Positions 6,842 through 16,896 of a stretch of DNA of 64,000 nt are shown here, piece after piece. Position 1 is the stretch's first letter; each line of letters opens with the position of its first letter. The notes below the pieces were generated by a model, which was given only the letters and a program-made list of their open reading frames with translations, was not told the origin of the DNA and ran no database searches. The position numbers and the translations under genes were made by a program. Origin of the DNA: an uncultured Lachnospiraceae bacterium (lineage in GTDB: Bacteria; Bacillota; Clostridia; Lachnospirales; Lachnospiraceae); contig CAMORO010000003.1 in NCBI GenBank assembly GCA_946623875.1, positions 1-64,000 on the forward strand, read 5' to 3'.

Positions 6842-7870
6842 ATGACAAGGATAACACGTGAAAGGCCATCATATTACCCCCGGTTTCAATGCACGGGAAA
6901 TACAACCTGTATTGATAATTGCTGTCACGCATGGGTTCTGCCTCTGGATAAAAAGACTGCCGATTATTATATGAATTACAAAGGCGAATTTGGAGATACT
7001 ATGCGTTCTAATATTTTTAAGGACGAAAAAGGCGATTGGTTTATAAAGATCGGTGATGATGGGAGATGCAAATTTCTTACCGAAGACAAGCTCTGTACGG
7101 TCAGGCTTAATGTCGGAGAAAGCGCACAGGCTAAGATATGCGATATTTACCCGAGAGAGAGGGATATAATGGCCGGGCATTACAGGCAGGACAGGCTTCT
7201 GCTCGCATGCAGCGAGGTCGCCAAGCTTTTTTACAATGACGCCGGTGAAAGACTTGAGTTTATAAAGACTGTTGAAGAAATTGAAGGAAATGAACCATCC
7301 CCTGAGCTTAGAGAGCGGACGGATATGCTTCTTGCCTTTCGCGACGGGATAGTTGAGGGTCTGCAGGCAGGCACATTTGACAGCAGTCTTTTTGAAGTAT
7401 ATGAATCAGCCGAAACTTTTGAGGGAATATTTGAAGATGCATACTACTTCGAGGGACATGAACCGACGGAAACCATAATAAATAAAACAAGACAGTTGGT
7501 AAGAGAAGCGGATCCGCTACGGAAACAATTCTATTCACAGATTCCCGAAGCCAGGAAATGGATGAGAAAGACGGCGGCGTATTTTGCACACCGGCAGCTG
7601 CTTGATACTATACAGGACGGAAGCATAGACGGTCCGTTGATATCGATCTTCCGGTCGACTCATATTCTGGAACTGATCTGTCTTGCCGTATTTAAGGATA
7701 AGGGTGATTTTACTGTGGATGATATGGCTTTTTGTGCATATACCTTTGGCCTTACATTTGAAATATCCATGCATAATGTTAATTTGATGAAGGAAGTCAG
7801 GAATACGGCAAAGGATGAATACTATCCGGACAACGAGAATTCCGAGATGCGTCCTTATCTCTATCCGTGA
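6842..7870 (+). CDS. fliB: FliB-like lysine N-methylase (flagellin lysine methylase family)
   Basis: A 342-residue soluble protein with the cysteine pattern of the FliB/YkgJ group: C17, C23, C27 and C28 in RFQCTGNTTCIDNCCHAW, a second pair in GRCKFLTEDKLC (about 75-85), then KICDIYPRE and LLACSEV. In Salmonella, FliB methylates surface lysines of flagellin; the cysteines probably hold a metal or Fe-S cluster. A GGAG site lies upstream. No flagellin gene is visible, although fliW occurs at 61093. It lies between the phosphatase block and the peptide-export cassette, so its substrate could be flagellin encoded elsewhere or, speculatively, the lysine-rich precursor peptides downstream. Family assignment is fairly confident; substrate is not. 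Confidence 0.75.
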   Translation: MTRITRERPSYYPRFQCTGNTTCIDNCCHAWVLPLDKKTADYYMNYKGEFGDTMRSNIFKDEKGDWFIKIGDDGRCKFLTEDKLCTVRLNVGESAQAKICDIYPRERDIMAGHYRQDRLLLACSEVAKLFYNDAGERLEFIKTVEEIEGNEPSPELRERTDMLLAFRDGIVEGLQAGTFDSSLFEVYESAETFEGIFEDAYYFEGHEPTETIINKTRQLVREADPLRKQFYSQIPEARKWMRKTAAYFAHRQLLDTIQDGSIDGPLISIFRSTHILELICLAVFKDKGDFTVDDMAFCAYTFGLTFEISMHNVNLMKEVRNTAKDEYYPDNENSEMRPYLYP

Positions 7871-7973: not shown

Positions 7974-8213
7974 ATGGATAAATCAATTTTCAGGGAAAAA
8001 AGCATAGAGAGGATATCTTCTCCGGAGAAGATCGATGACTACATGAAGATCGCCGGAATAAGCATGTGGCTCGTGCTCGGATGTATTTTGCTGGTACTGA
8101 TCGGTGCTATTATCTGGGGTTTCAAGGGACGCATCGAGGATACGGTTACGGATGCTTCGGGGAATGTCAGTACGGTTGAGATAGCACCGGTATCCCTTCT
8201 TCTTGGTGAATAG
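7974..8213 (+). CDS. Short membrane protein resembling the N-terminus of an NHLM-type HlyD secretion protein
   Basis: A 79-residue protein: basic/acidic N-terminus (FREKSIERISSPEKIDDYMK), one TM helix (about 29-49, ending IIWGFKG) and a short exported tail. The pattern of F/I-R-x-K-S-x-E-R, S-S-P-E, a single helix and W-G-F matches the first 60 or so residues of HlyD-family adaptors accompanying NHLM bacteriocin exporters. It stops before the barrel-sandwich and coiled-coil parts, and the 109 bp to the exporter cannot hold them. It is either a decayed adaptor or a minimal one retained as a membrane anchor. Its position before both ABC exporters supports the family link. Confidence 0.6.
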   Translation: MDKSIFREKSIERISSPEKIDDYMKIAGISMWLVLGCILLVLIGAIIWGFKGRIEDTVTDASGNVSTVEIAPVSLLLGE

Positions 8214-8229
8214 AGTATATTGCAAAGAT

Positions 8230-8256
8230 CATCCGGGCCTTAAGTGAAGCCGGATG
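8230..8256 (+). other. Hairpin between HlyD stub and exporter
   Basis: CATCCGG and CCGGATG form a 7-bp stem within the 109-bp gap. No T tract follows, so it is not a standard terminator. It could be an mRNA processing or stabilising structure, or a scar of a deletion that removed the rest of HlyD. Confidence 0.4.
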
Positions 8257-8322
8257 GGATCGCAGGTGCCAAGGGAAGTGTAAAGAGTTATTGTGACAAA
8301 GTGTAAGAAGAAGGGGTTATGA

Positions 8323-10524
8323 ATGTCTGAGATAAGGAAGCCGGTGACCGGAAAGGTTGCAAAGGTGCCGGTGATACTACAATTGGAAGCGCTTGAGTGC
8401 GGTGCGGCATGTCTTGCAATGATACTTGCCTACTACGGAAAGTGGGTGCCGCTTGAAAAGGTCAGGGTTGACTGCGGAGTGTCGCGCGACGGCTCCAATG
8501 CGAAGAACATCATGCTGGCTGCGAGAAATTACCGCCTGCATGCGCAGGGATACAGGTTTGAGATCGATGATCTGAAAAAAGAAGGAGAATTCCCCTGTAT
8601 CATTTTCTGGGAGTTCAATCATTTTGTTGTTCTTGACGGATTTAAGAAGGATAAGGCGGTTATCAACGACCCTGCAAGAGGGGTAGTGGAGCTGTCGATG
8701 GAGGATTTCGACAAGGGATTTACCGGTGTATGCATATTCTTTGAACCTGAAGAGGGATTTGAACGCGGAGGGAAGAAGAAGAGCATATTCGAATTTGCCG
8801 GGAAGCAGCTTAAGGGAACCGGCGCCGTTATGGCCTTTACCGTTATTGTTTCACTTATATGTGCGATAACCGGAGTCATTAATCCGATATTTGCCAAGAT
8901 ATTTATCGACAGATTTCTTGCCGGTAGAAACAGGGACTGGTTAGTGCCTTTTTTTATTTTTCTGATAGTCTTCGCAGTTATGCAGATAGTTCTTTCGGGA
9001 ATGCAGGCAATATATAATCTGAGGATACAGGGCAAGCTTGCGATAAAGGCGAATGCGCGTTACATGTGGCATGTTCTCAGGATGCCGGTCGAATTTTTTA
9101 CACAGCGTCATGCCGAGGATATCGCCATCAGGAAGAAAGACAATGAGATACTCGCAGCTACGCTTATCAATACACTTGCACCTACGGTCCTTGATCTTTT
9201 AATGATGATAGTTTACCTTACCGTCATACTTAAGTACAGTGTAATGCTGACTGCAGTAGGACTTGTGGGTATGGCAATAAATATATTTGTAAGTCAGTAT
9301 ATTTCCGCGAAGCGCGTTAATATATCACGCGTTCAGATGAGGGATGCCGCCAAGCTGGCCGCTACAACCGTTTCGGGAATAGAGATGATGGAGACTATCA
9401 AATCGAGCGGGGCGGAAAACGGCTTTTTCGAGAAATGGGCCGGATTTCAGGCATCGGTAAACAGTAATACCGTTAAGGAGATCAAGCTGAACAGTTATTA
9501 CGGTCTGATCCCTCTGGTCGTTAATGTTTTTGTTAATACAACAATACTCGGAACAGGATTGTATCTTATCATGAAGGGGCATTTCACGGTTGGTATGCTG
9601 TATTCGTTTCAGGCCATGCTGACACAGTTTATGGCTCCTGTTATGGCGATGTCCGATACCGGTACGATAATCCGTGAAATGCGTGTCGATATGGAGCGCA
9701 TAGATGATGTCATCGAATATCCGGTTGATGTTGAGTATGATGAGAGTGATACAGCGGACTCGGGTCATGATGACAGTACGGATGACAGTGAAAGCTTCAG
9801 TAAGCTTTCCGGGCAGGTCGAACTTAAGGATGTTACTTTCGGATACTCAAGGCTTTCACCGCCTCTTATAGAGAATTTTTCAATGAAGGTGGAACCGGGA
9901 CAGAAGGTAGCTTTCGTCGGCGCTTCGGGTTGCGGTAAATCCACACTTTCGAAGCTTATATCGGGATTGTATAAGCCATGGAGCGGCGAGGTACTGTTTG
10001 ACGGCAAGCCTATGGAGGATATCAACAGAAGTGTGTTTACAGGTTCGCTTGCGGTTGTGGATCAGGAGATAACCCTGTTTGAGGATACGCTGGCAAACAA
10101 TATCAAGATGTGGGACAGCTCCATCGAAGATTTTGAAATGATACTGGCTGCACGCGATGCCAGTCTTCATGATGATATCCTTCAGCGCGAAGGAGGCTAT
10201 AAGTACAGGATGATAGCCGACGGGCGTGATTTCTCGGGAGGACAGCGCCAGAGGATCGAGATAGCAAGGGTGCTTGCACAGGATCCAACCGTGATCATCA
10301 TGGATGAGGCTACCAGTGCACTGGATGCAGCCACTGAATATGAGGTGGTAAAGTCAATTACCGCCAGAGGCATAACCTGTATAGTCATAGCTCACAGGCT
10401 GTCGACGATACGTGACTGTGATGAGATAATAGTGATGGACCATGGAAAGGTTGTTGAGAGGGGAACCCATGATGAGCTTATCAACATGCATGGTAAGTAT
10501 GAGGAATTAATAACGTCGGAGTAG
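8323..10524 (+). CDS. NHLM-type peptidase-containing ABC exporter (C39 peptidase / TM / ATPase)
   Basis: This 733-residue protein has the standard three-part build of double-glycine peptide exporters. Residues 15-140 are a C39 peptidase with Q20, catalytic C26 (in LECGAACLAM), H100 (NHFVVLDGF) and D116 (NDPARG), all present. A six-helix exporter domain spans about 160-450. The ATPase domain has Walker A GASGCGKST, signature FSGGQRQR, Walker B VIIMDEATSALD and an AHRLST switch. It should cleave leaders after Gly-Gly and export the peptide; two such precursors are encoded downstream. An acidic linker (DESDTADSGHDDSTDD) separates the TM and ATPase parts. The sequence fits the first ABC protein of NHLM (nitrile-hydratase/Nif11 leader) microcin systems. 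It lies 19 bp before its partner exporter. Confidence 0.88.
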   Translation: MSEIRKPVTGKVAKVPVILQLEALECGAACLAMILAYYGKWVPLEKVRVDCGVSRDGSNAKNIMLAARNYRLHAQGYRFEIDDLKKEGEFPCIIFWEFNHFVVLDGFKKDKAVINDPARGVVELSMEDFDKGFTGVCIFFEPEEGFERGGKKKSIFEFAGKQLKGTGAVMAFTVIVSLICAITGVINPIFAKIFIDRFLAGRNRDWLVPFFIFLIVFAVMQIVLSGMQAIYNLRIQGKLAIKANARYMWHVLRMPVEFFTQRHAEDIAIRKKDNEILAATLINTLAPTVLDLLMMIVYLTVILKYSVMLTAVGLVGMAINIFVSQYISAKRVNISRVQMRDAAKLAATTVSGIEMMETIKSSGAENGFFEKWAGFQASVNSNTVKEIKLNSYYGLIPLVVNVFVNTTILGTGLYLIMKGHFTVGMLYSFQAMLTQFMAPVMAMSDTGTIIREMRVDMERIDDVIEYPVDVEYDESDTADSGHDDSTDDSESFSKLSGQVELKDVTFGYSRLSPPLIENFSMKVEPGQKVAFVGASGCGKSTLSKLISGLYKPWSGEVLFDGKPMEDINRSVFTGSLAVVDQEITLFEDTLANNIKMWDSSIEDFEMILAARDASLHDDILQREGGYKYRMIADGRDFSGGQRQRIEIARVLAQDPTVIIMDEATSALDAATEYEVVKSITARGITCIVIAHRLSTIRDCDEIIVMDHGKVVERGTHDELINMHGKYEELITSE

Positions 10525-10542
10525 GACAGGAAACACAGATAA

Positions 10543-12714
10543 ATGAGTTGGTTTGAAGAACAGATTAAGCTAAGGACCAGAAGTGATGACGAAATGTTTA
10601 CCGATGCAGTAGCGAGAATGGTGAACATAGTCAGTACGGAGAAGATAGCGGTAGGAATGTCCGGGGATGGTAAGTTCCGGGGTGAAGCCATCGAGGACAT
10701 ACTAAAATATTATCACGTTAAGGTTCAGGAGATCCCTGAAGAGATAACGGATATGGAAGATGCGCTTGAGTACCTGTTAAGACCTTCGGGACTGATGAGA
10801 AGGCCGGTAAAGCTGACCGAAGGCTGGCACAGGGATGCTGTCGGAGCCATGCTCGGCAGTAAAAAGGGAGGCGGGATCGTCGCGATCATTCCCGGCATTG
10901 CAGGAGGATATTATTACAGGGATTATACAACCGGAGAGTCAAAAAGGATAACTGCCCGGGTTGAAAAGGAGCTCGATGAAAATGCCATTTGCTTCTACAG
11001 GCCTTTTCCGCTCCGCAGTATAGGTTTTAAAGATGTTGTTATGTTCATGATGGGTTCATTAAGACCCAGGGATTATGTCCTGATCATTGGCGCGACATTG
11101 TGCTCTGTCCTGATCGGAATGACCGCCCCGATGATAACGAAATATCTGTACGGAACGGTGCTTGATTACTCGAGTACCGCATTACTTATAGCAGCGATGA
11201 TAACCTTTACGTGTGCGGGACTTGTATTGAACCTGCTGGAAGTGATCAAGGTCCTTGTTAATTCGAATGTAACGGCCAGGATTGGCCTTGAATTGGAAAG
11301 TGCGATGATGATGAGGGTATTGTCGCTTCCGGTTAATTTCTTCAGGGATTACAGTGCGGGTGAGCTTGCAGGCCGTATAGGAAATGTAAATGTGATATGC
11401 AATACTGTATTTAATTCTGTTCTCTCGATCGGACTTACATCAATATTCTCGCTTGTTTATATATTTCAGGTTATCAAATATGCACCTGCGCTGGTCGCGC
11501 CTTCCATGGCGGTCACCGTTGCCACCTTTGTCATAACTACGGTGACGGCTCTGTGGCAGATGAGCATTACAGAGAATCAGCTTCGTGAATCAAACAGGGA
11601 AGACGGTATGGTATATGCTCTGATAAGCGGCGTGGCCAAGCTGAAAAATGCCGGCGCCGAGAAGAGGGCATTTGCCAAGTGGAGTGAACAGTATTCCAAG
11701 GCTGCCCGGTATATGTACAGTCCGCCGATGTTCTTAAGGCTAAGCTCGACATTTGTTCTGGCAGTGACTCTTATCGGTACTGTAGTAATGTATTACAATG
11801 CTGTAAAGAGCGGGGTGAGTATGCCGGATTATATGGCGTTTACCGGTGCCTACGGTCTGATGAGCGGTGCCTTTGTTGCTCTTTCCTCTATCGCGGTAAT
11901 GATAGCGCAGATACGTCCGGTACACAAGCTTATCAAGCCGGTATTCGACACTGCTCCTGAGGTTGACGGAACCAGACCCGTGGTGACTGATCTGAAGGGC
12001 GGGATAGAGCTCAATAACATATCATTCAGATACGATGACAATATGCCGAATGTACTGGATAATATCTCCCTTAAGATTAAGCCCGGACAGTATGTGGCTA
12101 TAGTCGGAAAGACAGGCTGCGGTAAATCAACACTCATGCGTATCCTGCTTGGTTTTGAGAAGCCGCAGAAGGGCGCTGTTTATTATGACGGTAAGGATAT
12201 CTCGGGGATCGATCTTAAATCTCTGCGAAGGAATATCGGAGTGGTGATGCAGAACAGTAATCTTTTTCAGGGAGATATTTACAGCAATATCACTATATCC
12301 GCACCGCTGGCTACTCTGGATGATGCATGGGAAGCTGCCGAAATGGCGGGAATGGCAGATGATATAAGAAATATGCCCATGGGAATGAATACCATCATAT
12401 CAGAGGGTCAGGGAGGTATTTCCGGAGGACAGAAGCAGAGGCTCATGATAGCAAGAGCCATCGCGCCCAAGCCCAGGATACTTATGTTTGATGAGGCGAC
12501 TTCGGCTCTTGATAATATCACACAGAAGAAGGTATCGGAGTCCCTGGATTCACTGAAATGTACGAGAATAGTCATTGCTCACCGACTGTCCACGATCCGT
12601 CACTGCGACAGGATAATTGTACTTGACGGCGGGAAGATAATTGAGGACGGTACTTTTGACGAGCTGATCGCCATGAACGGTTTCTTTACGGATCTTGTCA
12701 GGCGGCAGATGTAA
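10543..12714 (+). CDS. NHLM-type ABC exporter, second subunit
   Basis: A 723-residue ABC exporter half-transporter with an N-terminal cytoplasmic region of about 160 residues that is not a C39 peptidase. This is the hallmark of the second ABC protein in NHLM export systems. TM helices span about 180-440. The ATPase domain has Walker A GKTGCGKST, signature ISGGQKQR, Walker B ILMFDEATSALD and an AHRLST switch, all intact. It probably pairs with the peptidase-bearing exporter just upstream as a heterodimer. The stop is followed by an A-rich stretch and then the promoter of the two precursor genes, so exporter and cargo can be expressed at different levels. Confidence 0.87.
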   Translation: MSWFEEQIKLRTRSDDEMFTDAVARMVNIVSTEKIAVGMSGDGKFRGEAIEDILKYYHVKVQEIPEEITDMEDALEYLLRPSGLMRRPVKLTEGWHRDAVGAMLGSKKGGGIVAIIPGIAGGYYYRDYTTGESKRITARVEKELDENAICFYRPFPLRSIGFKDVVMFMMGSLRPRDYVLIIGATLCSVLIGMTAPMITKYLYGTVLDYSSTALLIAAMITFTCAGLVLNLLEVIKVLVNSNVTARIGLELESAMMMRVLSLPVNFFRDYSAGELAGRIGNVNVICNTVFNSVLSIGLTSIFSLVYIFQVIKYAPALVAPSMAVTVATFVITTVTALWQMSITENQLRESNREDGMVYALISGVAKLKNAGAEKRAFAKWSEQYSKAARYMYSPPMFLRLSSTFVLAVTLIGTVVMYYNAVKSGVSMPDYMAFTGAYGLMSGAFVALSSIAVMIAQIRPVHKLIKPVFDTAPEVDGTRPVVTDLKGGIELNNISFRYDDNMPNVLDNISLKIKPGQYVAIVGKTGCGKSTLMRILLGFEKPQKGAVYYDGKDISGIDLKSLRRNIGVVMQNSNLFQGDIYSNITISAPLATLDDAWEAAEMAGMADDIRNMPMGMNTIISEGQGGISGGQKQRLMIARAIAPKPRILMFDEATSALDNITQKKVSESLDSLKCTRIVIAHRLSTIRHCDRIIVLDGGKIIEDGTFDELIAMNGFFTDLVRRQM

Positions 12715-12731
12715 AAAAATTGAAAAAAATA

Positions 12732-12760
12732 TTGCCATTTGGTTTTTTGATTCGTATAAA
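12732..12760 (+). promoter_or_regulatory. Promoter of the double-glycine peptide genes
   Basis: TTGCCA and TATAAA are separated by exactly 17 bp, ending 34 bp before the first precursor. A dedicated strong promoter fits the need for more cargo than exporter. Confidence 0.65.
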
Positions 12761-12793
12761 TATACAGAAAGGCGAAAACAGGAGGTTACTTTT

Positions 12794-13066
12794 ATGAATA
12801 AGAATATAGAACATCTTGCATTGGATGATGAATTACTTAAGGACGTAAACGGTGGCATACAGCAGAAGAAGGGGAATGAGGATCTGAGAAGAGTCAAGTG
12901 CAGGACTTGCGGTGAGGTCTTCATGGCCAATACAAAGGTTAAGCCGATCGTATGTCCGAGCTGCAACGAGGACTGTTCAGAGGAAAATCTGACGGCATCC
13001 AAGGTGAAGAAATCGACAGTCGCAAGCAATCCCGGTTCCGTCAATGTAACGGGCAGGGCAGTATAA
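12794..13066 (+). CDS. Double-glycine leader peptide precursor with zinc-ribbon-like core
   Basis: A 90-residue precursor. The leader ends LDDELLKDVNGG with Gly20-Gly21, matching what C39 peptidases recognise (hydrophobic residues at regular spacing before GG). The predicted mature peptide has 69 residues. It contains CRTC (36-39) and CPSC (54-57) 14 residues apart, plus C61, a zinc-ribbon-like arrangement rare in bacteriocin-type peptides. The tail is basic and serine/asparagine-rich. The ATG at 12794 was chosen because GGAGG lies 8 bp before it and the leader starts there. It shares its leader and ribosome-binding-site sequence (GGAGGTTAC) with the next gene. Function may be a bacteriocin, a signal or a metal-binding exported peptide; none can be assigned. 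Confidence 0.75.
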   Translation: MNKNIEHLALDDELLKDVNGGIQQKKGNEDLRRVKCRTCGEVFMANTKVKPIVCPSCNEDCSEENLTASKVKKSTVASNPGSVNVTGRAV

Positions 13067-13094
13067 TGAATACAGAGGAAGGGAGGTTACGGTT

Positions 13095-13349
13095 ATGTTG
13101 GAGAACAGTAAAGACAAATTACTTGATGATGCATTACTTGATGAGGTTAACGGAGGATTAAAGCTGGGTGGAGTATCTACGTTAGGGGTGGATCTTGTGC
13201 AAAGGGGCGATCCGGGCAGTGCACAGACTACGCAATATGATGAAAAAAAGAAATACAAAGCAAAGTTCATAGATAATGCCGCTGTCAGAAGTGTCGGGGA
13301 AAACAAGATAGTATCGGGCGGCAATTTTGACACAGGAGGCAGGTGCTGA
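13095..13349 (+). CDS. Second double-glycine leader peptide precursor
   Basis: An 84-residue precursor. The leader ends LDDALLDEVNGG with the Gly pair at 20-21, the same position as in the preceding gene, so both fit one peptidase. The mature part is 63 residues, glycine-rich at first (LKLGGVSTLGVD), then lysine-rich (DEKKKYKAK), ending FDTGGRC with a single terminal cysteine. GGAGGTTAC precedes the start, as in the upstream gene. The two cores are unrelated beyond the leader. No lanthipeptide, radical-SAM or cyclodehydratase gene is nearby, so an unmodified or disulfide-linked product is likely. A terminator follows directly. Confidence 0.75.
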   Translation: MLENSKDKLLDDALLDEVNGGLKLGGVSTLGVDLVQRGDPGSAQTTQYDEKKKYKAKFIDNAAVRSVGENKIVSGGNFDTGGRC

Positions 13350-13369
13350 TCTTTCATATATAGCTGATT

Positions 13370-13420
13370 ACGGGGACGCTGATCTGAAACAACCATCGGA
13401 TCATCGTCCCCGTTGTTTTA
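13370..13420 (+). terminator. Terminator after the peptide genes
   Basis: ACGGGGACG pairs with CGTCCCCGT (13405-13413), with an inner GATC/GATC pairing, followed by TTGTTTTA. It closes the export cassette. Confidence 0.75.
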
Positions 13421-13460
13421 TGTGAGTAACTATTCAGAACAGCACATATATTTTAAAATA

Positions 13461-13469
13461 TGTTATACT
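13461..13469 (+). promoter_or_regulatory. Extended -10 immediately before the first sensor kinase
   Basis: TGTTATACT ends 6 bp before the ATG at 13476. Initiation at the usual distance would begin at or next to the start codon, and no Shine-Dalgarno sequence is present, implying a leaderless mRNA. Confidence 0.5.
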
Positions 13470-13475
13470 AGCACC

Positions 13476-15260
13476 ATGAAAAAGATTTTTAACACGTTCA
13501 CCGGTCTGATGAACAACCTGACAATCTACAGAAAGCTGATATTCTTTTATGCCTTCTGCGTTATCCTGCCGATTATTGTAACGGACGGCATCATCATACA
13601 TATAATAAACCGTGATGAGAGGCAGAGGCAGGAGTATGAGCTTGACAACATCGCACAGGCGGTGGGAAACAGTGTCACCGATCTGTTTGATGATATCCTG
13701 GATACGACAAATGCGATATATCTGGACAGAGCTGTCAATGATTTTATCAGCAGGGAGTACGAAAAACCGTATGATTACTATTCCGCCAATTACAGGCTTC
13801 TGCGACAGTCTCTTGCAGGGAGTATATTCAACAATTCCGACTACAGTGTTACCATCTATACCGATAATCCGACGATCGTAAGCGGAGGGCGTTTCTGCTC
13901 CATCGGATCGATAGCCGGTACCGAATGGTATAAGGCATTTCGTGAGTCCAACGCCCCTATCTTCGAAACCTTCTATTACGGTGAGACGGGAGAGTATATT
14001 AAGTCAAGCAAGAGAGATATATGTCTTCTCCGTGCCATGAACAATTACGGTAATTTCAGGCGCGAGGTGATCATTAAGGCGGACATCAATTACAACGAGC
14101 TTGTGAAGTCGCTCAATGATATGAATTATCTTGCTACAGTCTATGTGTGCAGTGGTGATGTCATTCTCTTTTCAAATGATGATAAGACCGACATAAACGA
14201 GCCCTTTGCCACACTTACCGGAAGTGAGAGGATAGCGGCCGTATCGGATCTTGATCTGCACGGGTCAAAGCTTAAGGTGCTTGTGCTTGAACCCGATACG
14301 GGAATCCGGTTTTTCAGTAAGAAGAATATTCCGGTTTTTATTTTGCTTATTTTTATGAATCTGTTTCTTCCGGTGATTTTGGTTTACATAATCAACAAAT
14401 CTCTGACGGAACGGTTTGCGTTGCTGAATGCTTCTTTTGATAAGATCAAGGGAGAGGTGTCGCAGATAAAGGAAATAGAAGATATAGAGGGAAACGACGA
14501 AATAAGCAACCTTATGACCAATTATAATTTAATGGTACGTCGACTTAAGGAGCTTATCAAGACGGTATATGAAGACAGGCTTGAGAAGCAGGAAACCGAT
14601 ATAGCCAGGCAGCAGGCTGAACTGCTGGCTCTTCATTCCCAGATAAACCCGCATTTTTTGTTTAATGTACTTGAAAGTATCAGGATGCTCAGTCTTATCA
14701 GGAAGGAGAAGGAGATCGCGAGCATGATAGAGAAGCTTGCGATACTGGAGAGACAGAGTGTGGACTGGTCGAATGACTTTATCAGGCTTAAAGACGAGCT
14801 TAAGTTTGTCGAAGCATATCTGGACCTTCAGAAGCTGCGCTTTGAGGACAGGTTAAACTATAAGGTCAGCATTAAGAACGGTTGTGAGAATTATAACGTA
14901 CCGAAGCTTACACTTGAAACTTTCGTGGAAAACGCATGTGAACACGGCGTGGAGAATAAGTCGGTTCCCTGTTGGATATATATCCGTATATATGAACAGG
15001 ACGATACTCTGTTTCTGGAGGTCGAGGATACCGGCTCCGGAATGGATGAGAGTGCTGTAGAGGCACTGAACAAAAGGATGCGTGACTGCAGGATCTCCGA
15101 TCTTAAAGAGGGTAAGAGGGTCGGTATTATAAATGCCTGTCTCAGGCTTAAGATGATAACCGGTGACAGGGCAGTGTTCAATGTCGACAGCACAAAGGGA
15201 GTCGGTACGGTATTCCTGATAGGTATCCCTGCTGATACATTGGAGACGTCGGCATTTTGA
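13476..15260 (+). CDS. YesM-type sensor histidine kinase, cassette 1
   Basis: A 594-residue membrane kinase. TM1 is at about 20-42. An exported double-Cache-like sensor runs to about 275 and contains the segment SDYSVTIYTDNPTIVSGG. TM2 is at about 285-310, then a HAMP-like linker. The kinase core shows the HisKA-type motif SQINPHFLFNVLESIRM (phospho-accepting His) and an ATPase lid with ENACEHGVE and DTGSGMD. Members work with YesN-type AraC regulators to control polysaccharide ABC importers; the partner lies 40 bp downstream. The ATG at 13476 replaces an upstream start at 13413 that would lie inside the terminator. It is about 50% identical by eye to the kinase at 21240. Confidence 0.9.
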   Translation: MKKIFNTFTGLMNNLTIYRKLIFFYAFCVILPIIVTDGIIIHIINRDERQRQEYELDNIAQAVGNSVTDLFDDILDTTNAIYLDRAVNDFISREYEKPYDYYSANYRLLRQSLAGSIFNNSDYSVTIYTDNPTIVSGGRFCSIGSIAGTEWYKAFRESNAPIFETFYYGETGEYIKSSKRDICLLRAMNNYGNFRREVIIKADINYNELVKSLNDMNYLATVYVCSGDVILFSNDDKTDINEPFATLTGSERIAAVSDLDLHGSKLKVLVLEPDTGIRFFSKKNIPVFILLIFMNLFLPVILVYIINKSLTERFALLNASFDKIKGEVSQIKEIEDIEGNDEISNLMTNYNLMVRRLKELIKTVYEDRLEKQETDIARQQAELLALHSQINPHFLFNVLESIRMLSLIRKEKEIASMIEKLAILERQSVDWSNDFIRLKDELKFVEAYLDLQKLRFEDRLNYKVSIKNGCENYNVPKLTLETFVENACEHGVENKSVPCWIYIRIYEQDDTLFLEVEDTGSGMDESAVEALNKRMRDCRISDLKEGKRVGIINACLRLKMITGDRAVFNVDSTKGVGTVFLIGIPADTLETSAF

Positions 15261-15300
15261 ACCCGCAAAGACAGATAGCAGACAGAACAGAGGTAGAGTA

Positions 15301-16896
15301 ATGTATAAGGTAATGCTTGTGGATGATGAGCCGCTGATACTGAGGGGTATGTCCGTGGTGATAGACTGGGAGGACAGGGGCTTTGAGATAGTAAAGAGTG
15401 CGGCCAACGGGCGTGAGGCCTATGATTTTCTTAAGGACAATGAGGTCGATCTCATAATAGCCGATATCAAGATGCCCGAAATGAACGGGCTGGAGCTTAT
15501 CAGGCGTATCCGCGAGGAAGGGGTGTCCGATGCGTATTACGTCATACTCAGCGGTTATAATGATTTCGAATATGCAAGGCAGGCCATACGGTATTCGTGT
15601 ATGGATTATCTGCTTAAGCCTATTGACAGTGACCGGCTTATTGAGATACTGGATCAGGTTACGGAGTCGATCCATGAAAGGATGAAGCTGGTTAAAGACA
15701 GGGAAACGATAGAAGATGCATATTTTAAGCAGAGTATGATCGCATTGATGTGCGGCAGGTATGACGAGGATGATGAGGCATATGTTAAGAAGGAACTGGG
15801 CATTGGAAAGGAGAAATGCCGGTTCCTGATAGCTTCTGTTGACAATACGGAATCCCTCGAGGATATGGATGATGAGGAGATAAAGGAGATAAGGGATGCG
15901 CTCAGCCTTGCCGCGGAGGAGTATATCGGGAATCCTTCCTGTATTGTAAGAGATGCGTTTGATTATCTGGAGGATCATGAGATAGGTATCGTGATCCGGG
16001 ATGGTCTTACAAGTGCTTCCCGTATGACAGAGCACGAATATCTGGACGGGCTGTGTGACGTGCTTAATAAGGACATTGATGCCGGCGTGGTACTTCTGGC
16101 GGGTAAGAATGTCGATGATATATCCAGGCTTTCAAGATCCTACAGCAATGCATGTGTGCTGCGTCCATTCAGGGGCTTCAGCAATGAGAAGAGGATCTAT
16201 TACTATGAGGAGGAGGTCTCGGCCCCGCACAATAATGTTGTCCTTCTCAAGCAGAGTCTTGATGAACTTATAACGGCGATAGAGCAGAATGATATTACAA
16301 GGATAAACGGAAGCGTCGACACCCTGTATATGGAAATGGAGAGAGCAGGTCTTAATACGGATATGCGTTCGATGAACTTAAATTATCTGATCTTTCAGCT
16401 TATACATCTTGCGGTTGAGCAGGATGAAACAGTCGATCAGGAGGAGATACTGCATTATATCAGTGAGAATGCTTTCGATGCGACTGTTACCCGCGGCGGC
16501 CGGACACACCTTAAGAGGTTTGCCCTTTCTTACGCAGAATACCTGATACAGTTAAGAAGAAATGTATCGAGGGGGCTGCTTGCCGAGATAGAAAGAGAGA
16601 TCAGGAACAATTACGCCGAGAATCTGACGTTGCGTGAGCTCAGCAGGAAATATTATGTCAACTCATCGTACCTTGGCCAGACATTCAAAAAGAAATACGG
16701 ACAGTCCTTCAAGGACTATCTGTGCTCTGTGCGTATTGACGAAGCTGCCAAGCAGCTGCTCTCGACAGATGAGAAGATAGCCAATATAGCGGAAAATGTC
16801 GGATACAGGGATCCGGACTATTTTCTGCTGAAGTTTACGCAGGTTATGGGCATCTCACCGGCAAAGTACCGGAAGAACGGTGGAATGTTAACTTGA
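15301..16896 (+). CDS. YesN-type AraC response regulator, cassette 1
   Basis: A 531-residue regulator. The receiver domain spans 1-120, with D8-D9, phospho-acceptor D55 (IIADIKMPEMNG) and a conserved lysine in LLKPID. A middle region of about 180 residues follows. The shared linker LDELITAIEQND runs to about 425, then two AraC helix-turn-helix motifs (NLTLRELSRKYYVNSSYLGQTF and IANIAENVGYRDPDYF). When phosphorylated by the upstream kinase it should activate the ABC importer genes that follow. Direct repeats suited to AraC proteins lie at 16898-16928. The middle region is what the paralogue at 23069 lacks. Confidence 0.9.
   Translation: MYKVMLVDDEPLILRGMSVVIDWEDRGFEIVKSAANGREAYDFLKDNEVDLIIADIKMPEMNGLELIRRIREEGVSDAYYVILSGYNDFEYARQAIRYSCMDYLLKPIDSDRLIEILDQVTESIHERMKLVKDRETIEDAYFKQSMIALMCGRYDEDDEAYVKKELGIGKEKCRFLIASVDNTESLEDMDDEEIKEIRDALSLAAEEYIGNPSCIVRDAFDYLEDHEIGIVIRDGLTSASRMTEHEYLDGLCDVLNKDIDAGVVLLAGKNVDDISRLSRSYSNACVLRPFRGFSNEKRIYYYEEEVSAPHNNVVLLKQSLDELITAIEQNDITRINGSVDTLYMEMERAGLNTDMRSMNLNYLIFQLIHLAVEQDETVDQEEILHYISENAFDATVTRGGRTHLKRFALSYAEYLIQLRRNVSRGLLAEIEREIRNNYAENLTLRELSRKYYVNSSYLGQTFKKKYGQSFKDYLCSVRIDEAAKQLLSTDEKIANIAENVGYRDPDYFLLKFTQVMGISPAKYRKNGGMLT

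Follow-up and report, generated by a model that had tools for sequence, protein, structure and literature searches.

The locus considered here, a cassette for the export of peptides with double-glycine (GG) leaders at positions 7,974 to 13,349 of a 64,000-nucleotide stretch (the window) of contig CAMORO010000003.1 from an uncultured Lachnospiraceae bacterium (assembly GCA_946623875.1), shares features with several described systems. The cluster of LahT, an AMS-PCAT (a peptidase-containing ATP-binding cassette, or ABC, transporter) of Lachnospiraceae C6A11, contains nine Nif11-type precursors, and mutagenesis of a LahT substrate indicates that V, L or I at leader position -4 and L at positions -7 and -12 are required, changes at -3, -5 and -8 being tolerated (PMC6363468). 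PCAT1 of Clostridium thermocellum is a C39 exporter with a 90-residue precursor, CtA, for which specificity is ascribed to the leader, and the cargo density in the PCAT1-CtA complex points to a lack of specific contacts between cargo and transporter (PMC6959990). The NHLM export cassette comprises a TIGR03796/TIGR03797-type pair of ABC proteins together with a TIGR03794-like gene (Haft et al. 2010; PMC2887384). In Faecalibacterium, a gut member of the Clostridia, MAM is a GG-leader protein adjoining a PCAT; it is a 135-aa helical envelope protein, and the available text describes no ribbon and leaves HlyD unmentioned (PMC12184118). Zinc ribbons of the MJ0042/Zn_ribbon_4 kind, which also enter the comparison, are represented by models that span 36-38 positions and include no GG leader.

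The cassette of the window has in common with LahT its C39 domain and the leader rule, with PCAT1-CtA the combination of a C39 exporter and a 90-residue precursor, with the NHLM cassette the ABC pair and the TIGR03794-like gene, and with MAM the adjacency of a GG-leader protein to its putative transporter. It differs from the LahT cluster by its 21-aa leaders, by a ribbon core and by the lack of any of the maturases searched for, and from PCAT1-CtA by a second ABC partner and a diminutive HlyD-like protein (mini-HlyD). Since a full HlyD, NHLP or Nif11 leaders and the maturases searched for are all wanting, we do not class it as a full NHLM cassette; judged from its genes, it would appear to work like a PCAT with plain GG substrates. 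We consider it reasonably probable that the cassette represents a double-glycine route which derives from NHLM exporters, does without a maturase and serves several dispersed substrates, zinc ribbons being prominent among them. Its elements, whose open reading frames lie exactly where an original prediction made from the letters alone had put them, are as follows.

7974..8213, + strand: mini-HlyD, a 79-aa membrane protein corresponding to only the N-terminal portion of an HlyD-like protein of the TIGR03794 type
8323..10524, + strand: C39-peptidase ABC exporter, 733 aa (TIGR03796, catalytic residues, LahT-like C39 domain)
10543..12714, + strand: partner ABC exporter without peptidase, 723 aa (TIGR03797 score, canonical ATPase motifs)
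12732..12760, + strand: putative cargo promoter TTGCCA-17-TATAAA, read by eye
12794..13066, + strand: cargo 1 precursor, 90 aa, with a GG leader and a 69-aa zinc-ribbon-like core
12794..12856, + strand: cargo 1 leader, residues 1-21 (L-12, L-7, V-4, G-2, G-1)
12899..12964, + strand: four-cysteine ribbon of cargo 1, C36-C39 ... C54-C57 (CRTC, CPSC)
13095..13349, + strand: cargo 2 precursor, 84 aa, with a GG leader and a 63-aa core with conserved C-terminal SGG and a final Cys
13095..13157, + strand: cargo 2 leader, residues 1-21 (L-12, L-7, V-4)
13370..13419, + strand: intrinsic terminator 3' of cargo 2 (hairpin 13370-13413 and T-rich tail)

The C39 exporter passes the TIGR03796 model with 920.3 bits against a cut-off of 853.3, and all four catalytic residues of its peptidase (Q20, C26, H100, D116) are present, as had been predicted. 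Its C39 domain finds its nearest solved structure in LahT (6mpz, E 6e-65), the match to the next solved relative (4ry2, with which PCAT1-CtA is compared) being much weaker at 1.5e-19. The partner protein scores 707.2 bits against TIGR03797, 2.2 below the cut-off of 709.4, the next family reaching 333 bits; as for the designation of both exporters as NHLM-type, the first exceeds the model threshold and the second falls narrowly short of it. Walker A, signature and Walker B motifs are retained in both.

The two cargo genes, each preceded by a ribosome site, encode leaders that both end in N19-G20-G21 and that carry V, L and L at -4, -7 and -12, precisely the residues required by LahT. Neither cargo matches an NHLP or Nif11-type leader model of NCBIfam at E up to 1. 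On in silico grounds, both cargos resemble substrates of the C39 exporter beside them. Given the apparent absence of specific cargo contacts reported for PCAT1-CtA, the unusual core of cargo 1, in which the predicted CRTC and CPSC pairs are indeed found, need not block export; it would have to cross the membrane unfolded and hence zinc-free. The claim that the cargo genes have their own promoter and terminator is also supported, by a promoter-like site and a strong terminator: the second promoter box, ATAAAT, is invariant in all five aligned sequences (the window and four relatives), the first box being less conserved, and the terminator hairpin has a predicted stability of -29 kcal/mol (z -7.7), equalled by none of 200 shuffles. 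An automatic scan lists neither element, its promoter and terminator counts being close to those for shuffled sequence.

For the comparative analysis we used 37 genomes of the genus, labelled G000 (the source genome, 83% complete as assembled) to G036, with L numbers denoting loci. The GG leaders, the loss of which in relatives keeping the exporters had been named beforehand as a refuting observation, are retained in all four relatives found to possess the cargo pair (G036, G009, G032 and G012), and G036 keeps both cargos at 94% identity. The cargo cores are under purifying selection: between G000 and G036 the nonsynonymous (dN) and synonymous (dS) divergences are 0.025 and 0.091 for core 1 and 0.021 and 0.123 for core 2, and between G009 and G032 they are 0.204 and 0.96, and 0.065 and 0.685, respectively, the latter comparison resting on few sites. 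A separate observation is that over the cargo stretch 12900-13650 dS between G000 and G036 is about 0.1 (0.07-0.10), as against 0.35-0.50 in the other cassette genes, a low divergence that could be due to either recombination or constraint.

The mini-HlyD gene, which the original prediction did not name, encodes a product that reaches only 30.3 bits against TIGR03794 (cut-off 156.2) and covers only positions 1-47 of its 421. We initially have to ask whether this is a remnant; the pseudogene reading is, however, ruled out because the length of 79 aa is identical in G036, G009 and G032 and the sequence is conserved, with dN 0.011 and dS 0.504 for G000-G036 (dN/dS about 0.02) and 0.074 and 0.401 for G009-G032 (0.18). 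Among 61 C39 genes of the genus, counted after dropping one of two rows of a split gene and classed by open-frame length, an HlyD-like frame within 4 kb has at most 110 aa in 23 (from 21 genomes), 150-195 aa in 20 and a greater length in 8, and none was found within this distance in the remaining 10. The 17 short HlyD genes read besides that of the window encode 73-79 aa and, as judged by eye, retain, besides the N-terminal stretch and the membrane helix, a C-terminal end that is short and hydrophobic.

No LanC-like, YcaO or SPASM gene lies within 15 kb of any of the 23 mini-HlyD cassettes, within the reach that short contigs allow, and the same search finds one case each among the 20 cassettes with HlyD frames of 150-195 aa, the 8 with longer ones and the 10 with none. 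As a positive control, LanC was recovered near C39 genes in G036:C382 and G014:C91, and SPASM in G020:C30. The G000 assembly contains no match to LanC-like or YcaO proteins and a single SPASM match, on another contig; MNIO enzymes are found in none of the 37 genomes. The lack of the maturases searched for, which had been called atypical, is therefore usual for the mini-HlyD class.

Likewise, an exported-looking zinc-ribbon peptide, held to be unusual in the original prediction, turns out to be a recurrent product of the genus. A search with cargo 1 gave matches in 22 of 99 related genomes, some of them unrelated in kind, and many of the matching frames consisted of a GG leader followed by paired cysteines. 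The ribbon profile A1, built from 17 sequences, has matches in 32 of the 37 genus genomes, and a leader with a four-ligand ribbon was accepted on reading in 27 of the 37, a count that includes G035 (leader cut by the contig end, GG visible) and excludes G024 (AG). In five of these 27 (G000, G036, G009, G032, G012) the ribbon gene adjoins exporter genes. A further 20 have their recognised C39 genes on different contigs or, in the case of G025, at a distance of 57 kb, and in the other two (G015, G027) no C39 gene was found. In the wider family, 194 of 397 genomes searched match the ribbon profile. A search of named genomes with cargo 1 returned two loci, the G036 contig and a 32% match in a metagenome-assembled genome titled Variovorax, and among the literature matches listed, screened by titles and abstract openings and largely outside subscription journals, no description of a GG-leader zinc ribbon was recognised.

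Ligands and leaders were compared in an alignment of 23 rows (A4), from which L026 (at 94% identity to the window), L032 (truncated by a contig end), L157 and L161-L164 (not added), L166 (identical to L165), L158 (leader ending AG), L159 (resolved later) and leaderless profile matches were left out; in row L165 no start codon was set, and in L029, which has GGG, the last GG was used for the leader columns. C36, C39 and C57 are invariant and the fourth ligand, C54, is Cys in 22 rows and His in one, so that four Cys/His ligands are present in all 23; the cysteines are only partly free of selection, as the matches came from the ribbon profile. A swap of Cys for His at one ligand fits zinc or another metal better than a disulphide. 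In all 23 leaders -4 is V or I, -7 is L or F and -12 is L, I or M, of which only -12 is free of selection, the rows having been chosen for their leader, mostly by a motif requiring -7 and -4. Matches to Pfam ribbon models are weak though widespread: Zn_ribbon_4 matches 11 of the 23 members (best E 1.5e-6) and TIGR02098 matches 8 (E up to 0.05), and a profile search of solved structures returns mostly zinc fingers and zinc ribbons. We describe cargo 1 as zinc-ribbon-like, with zinc binding predicted.

The ribbons appear to be part of a wider set of dispersed GG miniproteins. A pattern blind to cysteines and to position -12, D/E(-8) L/F(-7) V/I/M(-4) x G G, gives 10 matches in G000 against one for the reversed control, and 18, 20 and 19 matches in G004, G010 and G029 against 2, 5 and 2. 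Three of the G000 matches are small leader genes, two of them with CxxC cores. In G004, G010 and G029 together, 27 small frames have a ribosome site; 17 of them were judged genuine by eye, after AtpG, UvrC, sigma-like and doubtful frames had been dropped, and five of the 17 have a CxxC core, two of which the ribbon profile had already found. Over the 67 matches of the four genomes, -12 is hydrophobic in 24 of 33 small ribosome-site frames as against 14 of 34 others (Fisher p 0.014), and in 19 of the 20 accepted genes (the 17 and the three of G000), L249 being the exception. Contig C65 of G000 encodes an orphan cargo that shares 54% identity over 91 aa with a GG peptide encoded about 1.3 kb before the mini-HlyD gene of G029. 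The picture suggested by these sequences is one of several GG miniproteins per genome, some encoded beside an exporter and most elsewhere. More tentatively, and with a confidence that stops slightly short of even, we suggest a genus-wide GG secretome, in which an NHLM-derived, maturase-free exporter class with shrunken HlyD would serve many dispersed miniproteins, one main class being an extracellular zinc ribbon that would act as a secreted scaffold stabilised by metal.

Two further observations concern these miniproteins. A second family of GG cargos, with the motif VIFDA..GADP..PWEVLD...NWDQV, occurs beside exporters (L091, L092, L094, L102, L103, L108, L126) and as orphans (L209, L234), and the source genome has a second GG-leader ribbon gene (L111 7854-8180, contig C20), 27 bases before a 1207-aa gene resembling those of non-ribosomal peptide synthetases (NRPSs).

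Several observations weigh against the maturase-free route with ribbon substrates. Homologous cores stand beside exporters in the five genomes named, the window included, but G025 and G031, whose C39 exporters are 73-74% identical, carry a different GG cargo in that place and have their ribbons elsewhere. Leader-ribbon genes are no commoner in genomes with a C39 gene (24 of 32) than in those without (3 of 5); of the latter three, G012 is truncated by a contig end, and G027 and G015 are 59% and 97% complete, respectively. Outside the genus, leaders were seen only in G209 and G380 among six match stretches read, and most other matches listed are confined to the ribbon part of long frames. The first knuckle is CPC in G009 and G032 and the second C-x4-C in three A4 rows; cargo 1 itself falls below every Pfam and NCBIfam cut-off, the best Pfam match being PF23470 (18 bits against 26), and the best solved-structure matches are C2H2 finger arrays of a different fold, so that the structure search supports the cysteine motif more than the fold. 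Over its whole length the cargo 2 leader is little constrained between G009 and G032 (dN 0.205, dS 0.224), the C39 frame is split in one of the 23 short-HlyD cassettes (G023:C103), and G000 has a second C39-like ABC pair, the assignment of orphan cargos to a particular exporter being conjectural. The maturase searches, finally, covered the classes named, within 15 kb of the cassettes or in the genomes stated.

On balance, we envisage the following sequence of events. The C39 domain would cut each precursor after Gly21, and the two ABC proteins, probably paired and aided by mini-HlyD, would pass the unmodified core out of the cell in unfolded form. Cargo 1 would then fold outside around zinc as a ribbon, and cargo 2 would be released unmodified, as a peptide with one cysteine, at its C-terminal end. 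Other GG-leader miniproteins with genes elsewhere in the genome, among them several more ribbons, probably leave by this exporter too. The likeliest role would be a standing extracellular or cell-surface function common to the genus rather than that of a strain-specific bacteriocin, a leaning that derives from the purifying selection on the cores and from the fact that no immunity gene was recognised.

Other explanations have to be weighed against this one. The two cores could act jointly on competing bacteria as a two-component class II bacteriocin, as might be suggested by the succession of two GG precursors behind a promoter-like site of their own. A survey of cultured rumen genomes predicts 21 unmodified two-component clusters, most of which show double-glycine motifs, AxxxA, GxxxG or SxxxS occurring in every one (PMC13289728), and core 1 holds one SxxxS, a loose motif. 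Bacteriocin models do match some of the 23 cargo 1 relatives (TIGR01847 three, CTB bacteriocin two, cerein-type one, at E up to 0.05), but every such match is weak, purifying selection has kept the cores conserved, and the ribbon motif runs through the genus, mostly in orphan genes. Between cargo 2 and the kinase the window shows no recognisable gene, an immunity gene included, although a small protein after cargo 2 in G009, G032 and G012 could be one, and on the whole we regard a bacteriocin as unlikely. Somewhat less doubtful, if still not favoured, is a place in the cell envelope after export through a PCAT. This has been proposed for MAM of Faecalibacterium duncaniae, which is described as exceeding all other envelope proteins in abundance and for which export by the adjacent PCAT is argued in silico (PMC12184118). 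The conserved cores and the lack of a maturase would fit such a function; the ribbon cores are, however, short (44-81 aa) and of many kinds. A role of the cargos as peptide signals for the two-component system that lies immediately downstream (13476-16896) would account for the kinase and regulator that follow the cargos closely in G000, G036 and G012, and at about 5 kb in G009 and G032. Yet the kinase is of the His_kinase type with a weak dCache match, the regulator is AraC-like, sugar-type ABC transporter genes follow (by eye, from translations) and the cores are long for pheromones. AraC-like regulator and kinase pairs beside sugar-type ABC genes usually serve carbohydrate uptake, and a signal seems improbable. 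Of the anticipation that the products are secreted and bacteriocin-like or signalling, secretion is supported in silico by the substrate-like leaders; the suggested role draws on the leader only, and no dedicated peptide receptor was recognised either.

The precursors might be modified after all, for example by the FliB-like flagellin lysine N-methylase encoded on the same strand at 6842-7870, 103 bp upstream of mini-HlyD, which scores 124.1 bits against NF038110 (cut-off 85). Cores 1 and 2 hold 8 and 7 lysines, and in L091 and L092 weak FliB-like matches, at 24% identity, are found some 1.8-1.9 kb past the exporters. G036, however, keeps both cargos yet has a SpoIIE phosphatase and an NRPS in the methylase position, and no FliB match above 35 bits lies beside the cassette in G036, G009 or G032 (L026-L028). 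The methylase was consequently dropped as the maturase candidate, not being linked in the closest relative, and modification of the precursors in general receives little credence from us. We are equally sceptical that the ribbons are cytosolic zinc proteins with an incidental GG resemblance: similar ribbons do occur in larger leaderless proteins, but the unselected -12 position is L, I or M in 23 of 23 rows and hydrophobic residues are enriched there in the GG-pattern control, and the ribbon gene adjoins exporter genes in five genomes. The maturase-free GG route with dispersed substrates remains the reading that we prefer.

The surroundings of the cassette yield some additional observations. 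NRPS, SpoIIE phosphatase and mini-HlyD genes are consecutive in G036, G009 and G032 with gaps of 0-77 bp (the G009 NRPS by eye), and G009 and G032 have condensation and AMP-binding genes downstream of their cargos as well. An NRPS partnership is ruled out because the best G000 match to a piece of the G036 NRPS is only 37% identical; with no closer match in G000, an NRPS is not needed for the cassette. A small conserved protein, PYIYNTN...TDFSGL, follows the cargos at L027 8346-8630, L028 9683-9967, L031 2316-2648 and L043 9374-9628 and is possibly linked to the cargo genes; the two copies scanned have no Pfam match. Mobile spread of the cassette was rejected, as no matches were found for the parts searched, namely cargo 1 in plasmids, mini-HlyD in phages and cargo 2 in viral contigs. 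Elsewhere, a UG26 reverse transcriptase (PADLOC E 1e-100) directly precedes a C39-like ABC exporter with its catalytic Cys changed to Asn (ENGAA) and a partner ABC gene, an arrangement seen in three genomes (L131 9456-15075, on contig C20 of the source genome itself, L134 and L136). L135 has the altered exporter pair, with no reverse transcriptase recognised among the adjacent frames listed.

If the preferred interpretation is correct, small zinc-binding proteins would be a routine secreted product of these anaerobes, and, being made without modifying enzymes, they would be missed by genome mining that starts from maturases. An exporter class commonly read as a sign of modified peptides could then be a general route for plain miniproteins, operating with an HlyD partner of which not much beyond a membrane helix is left.

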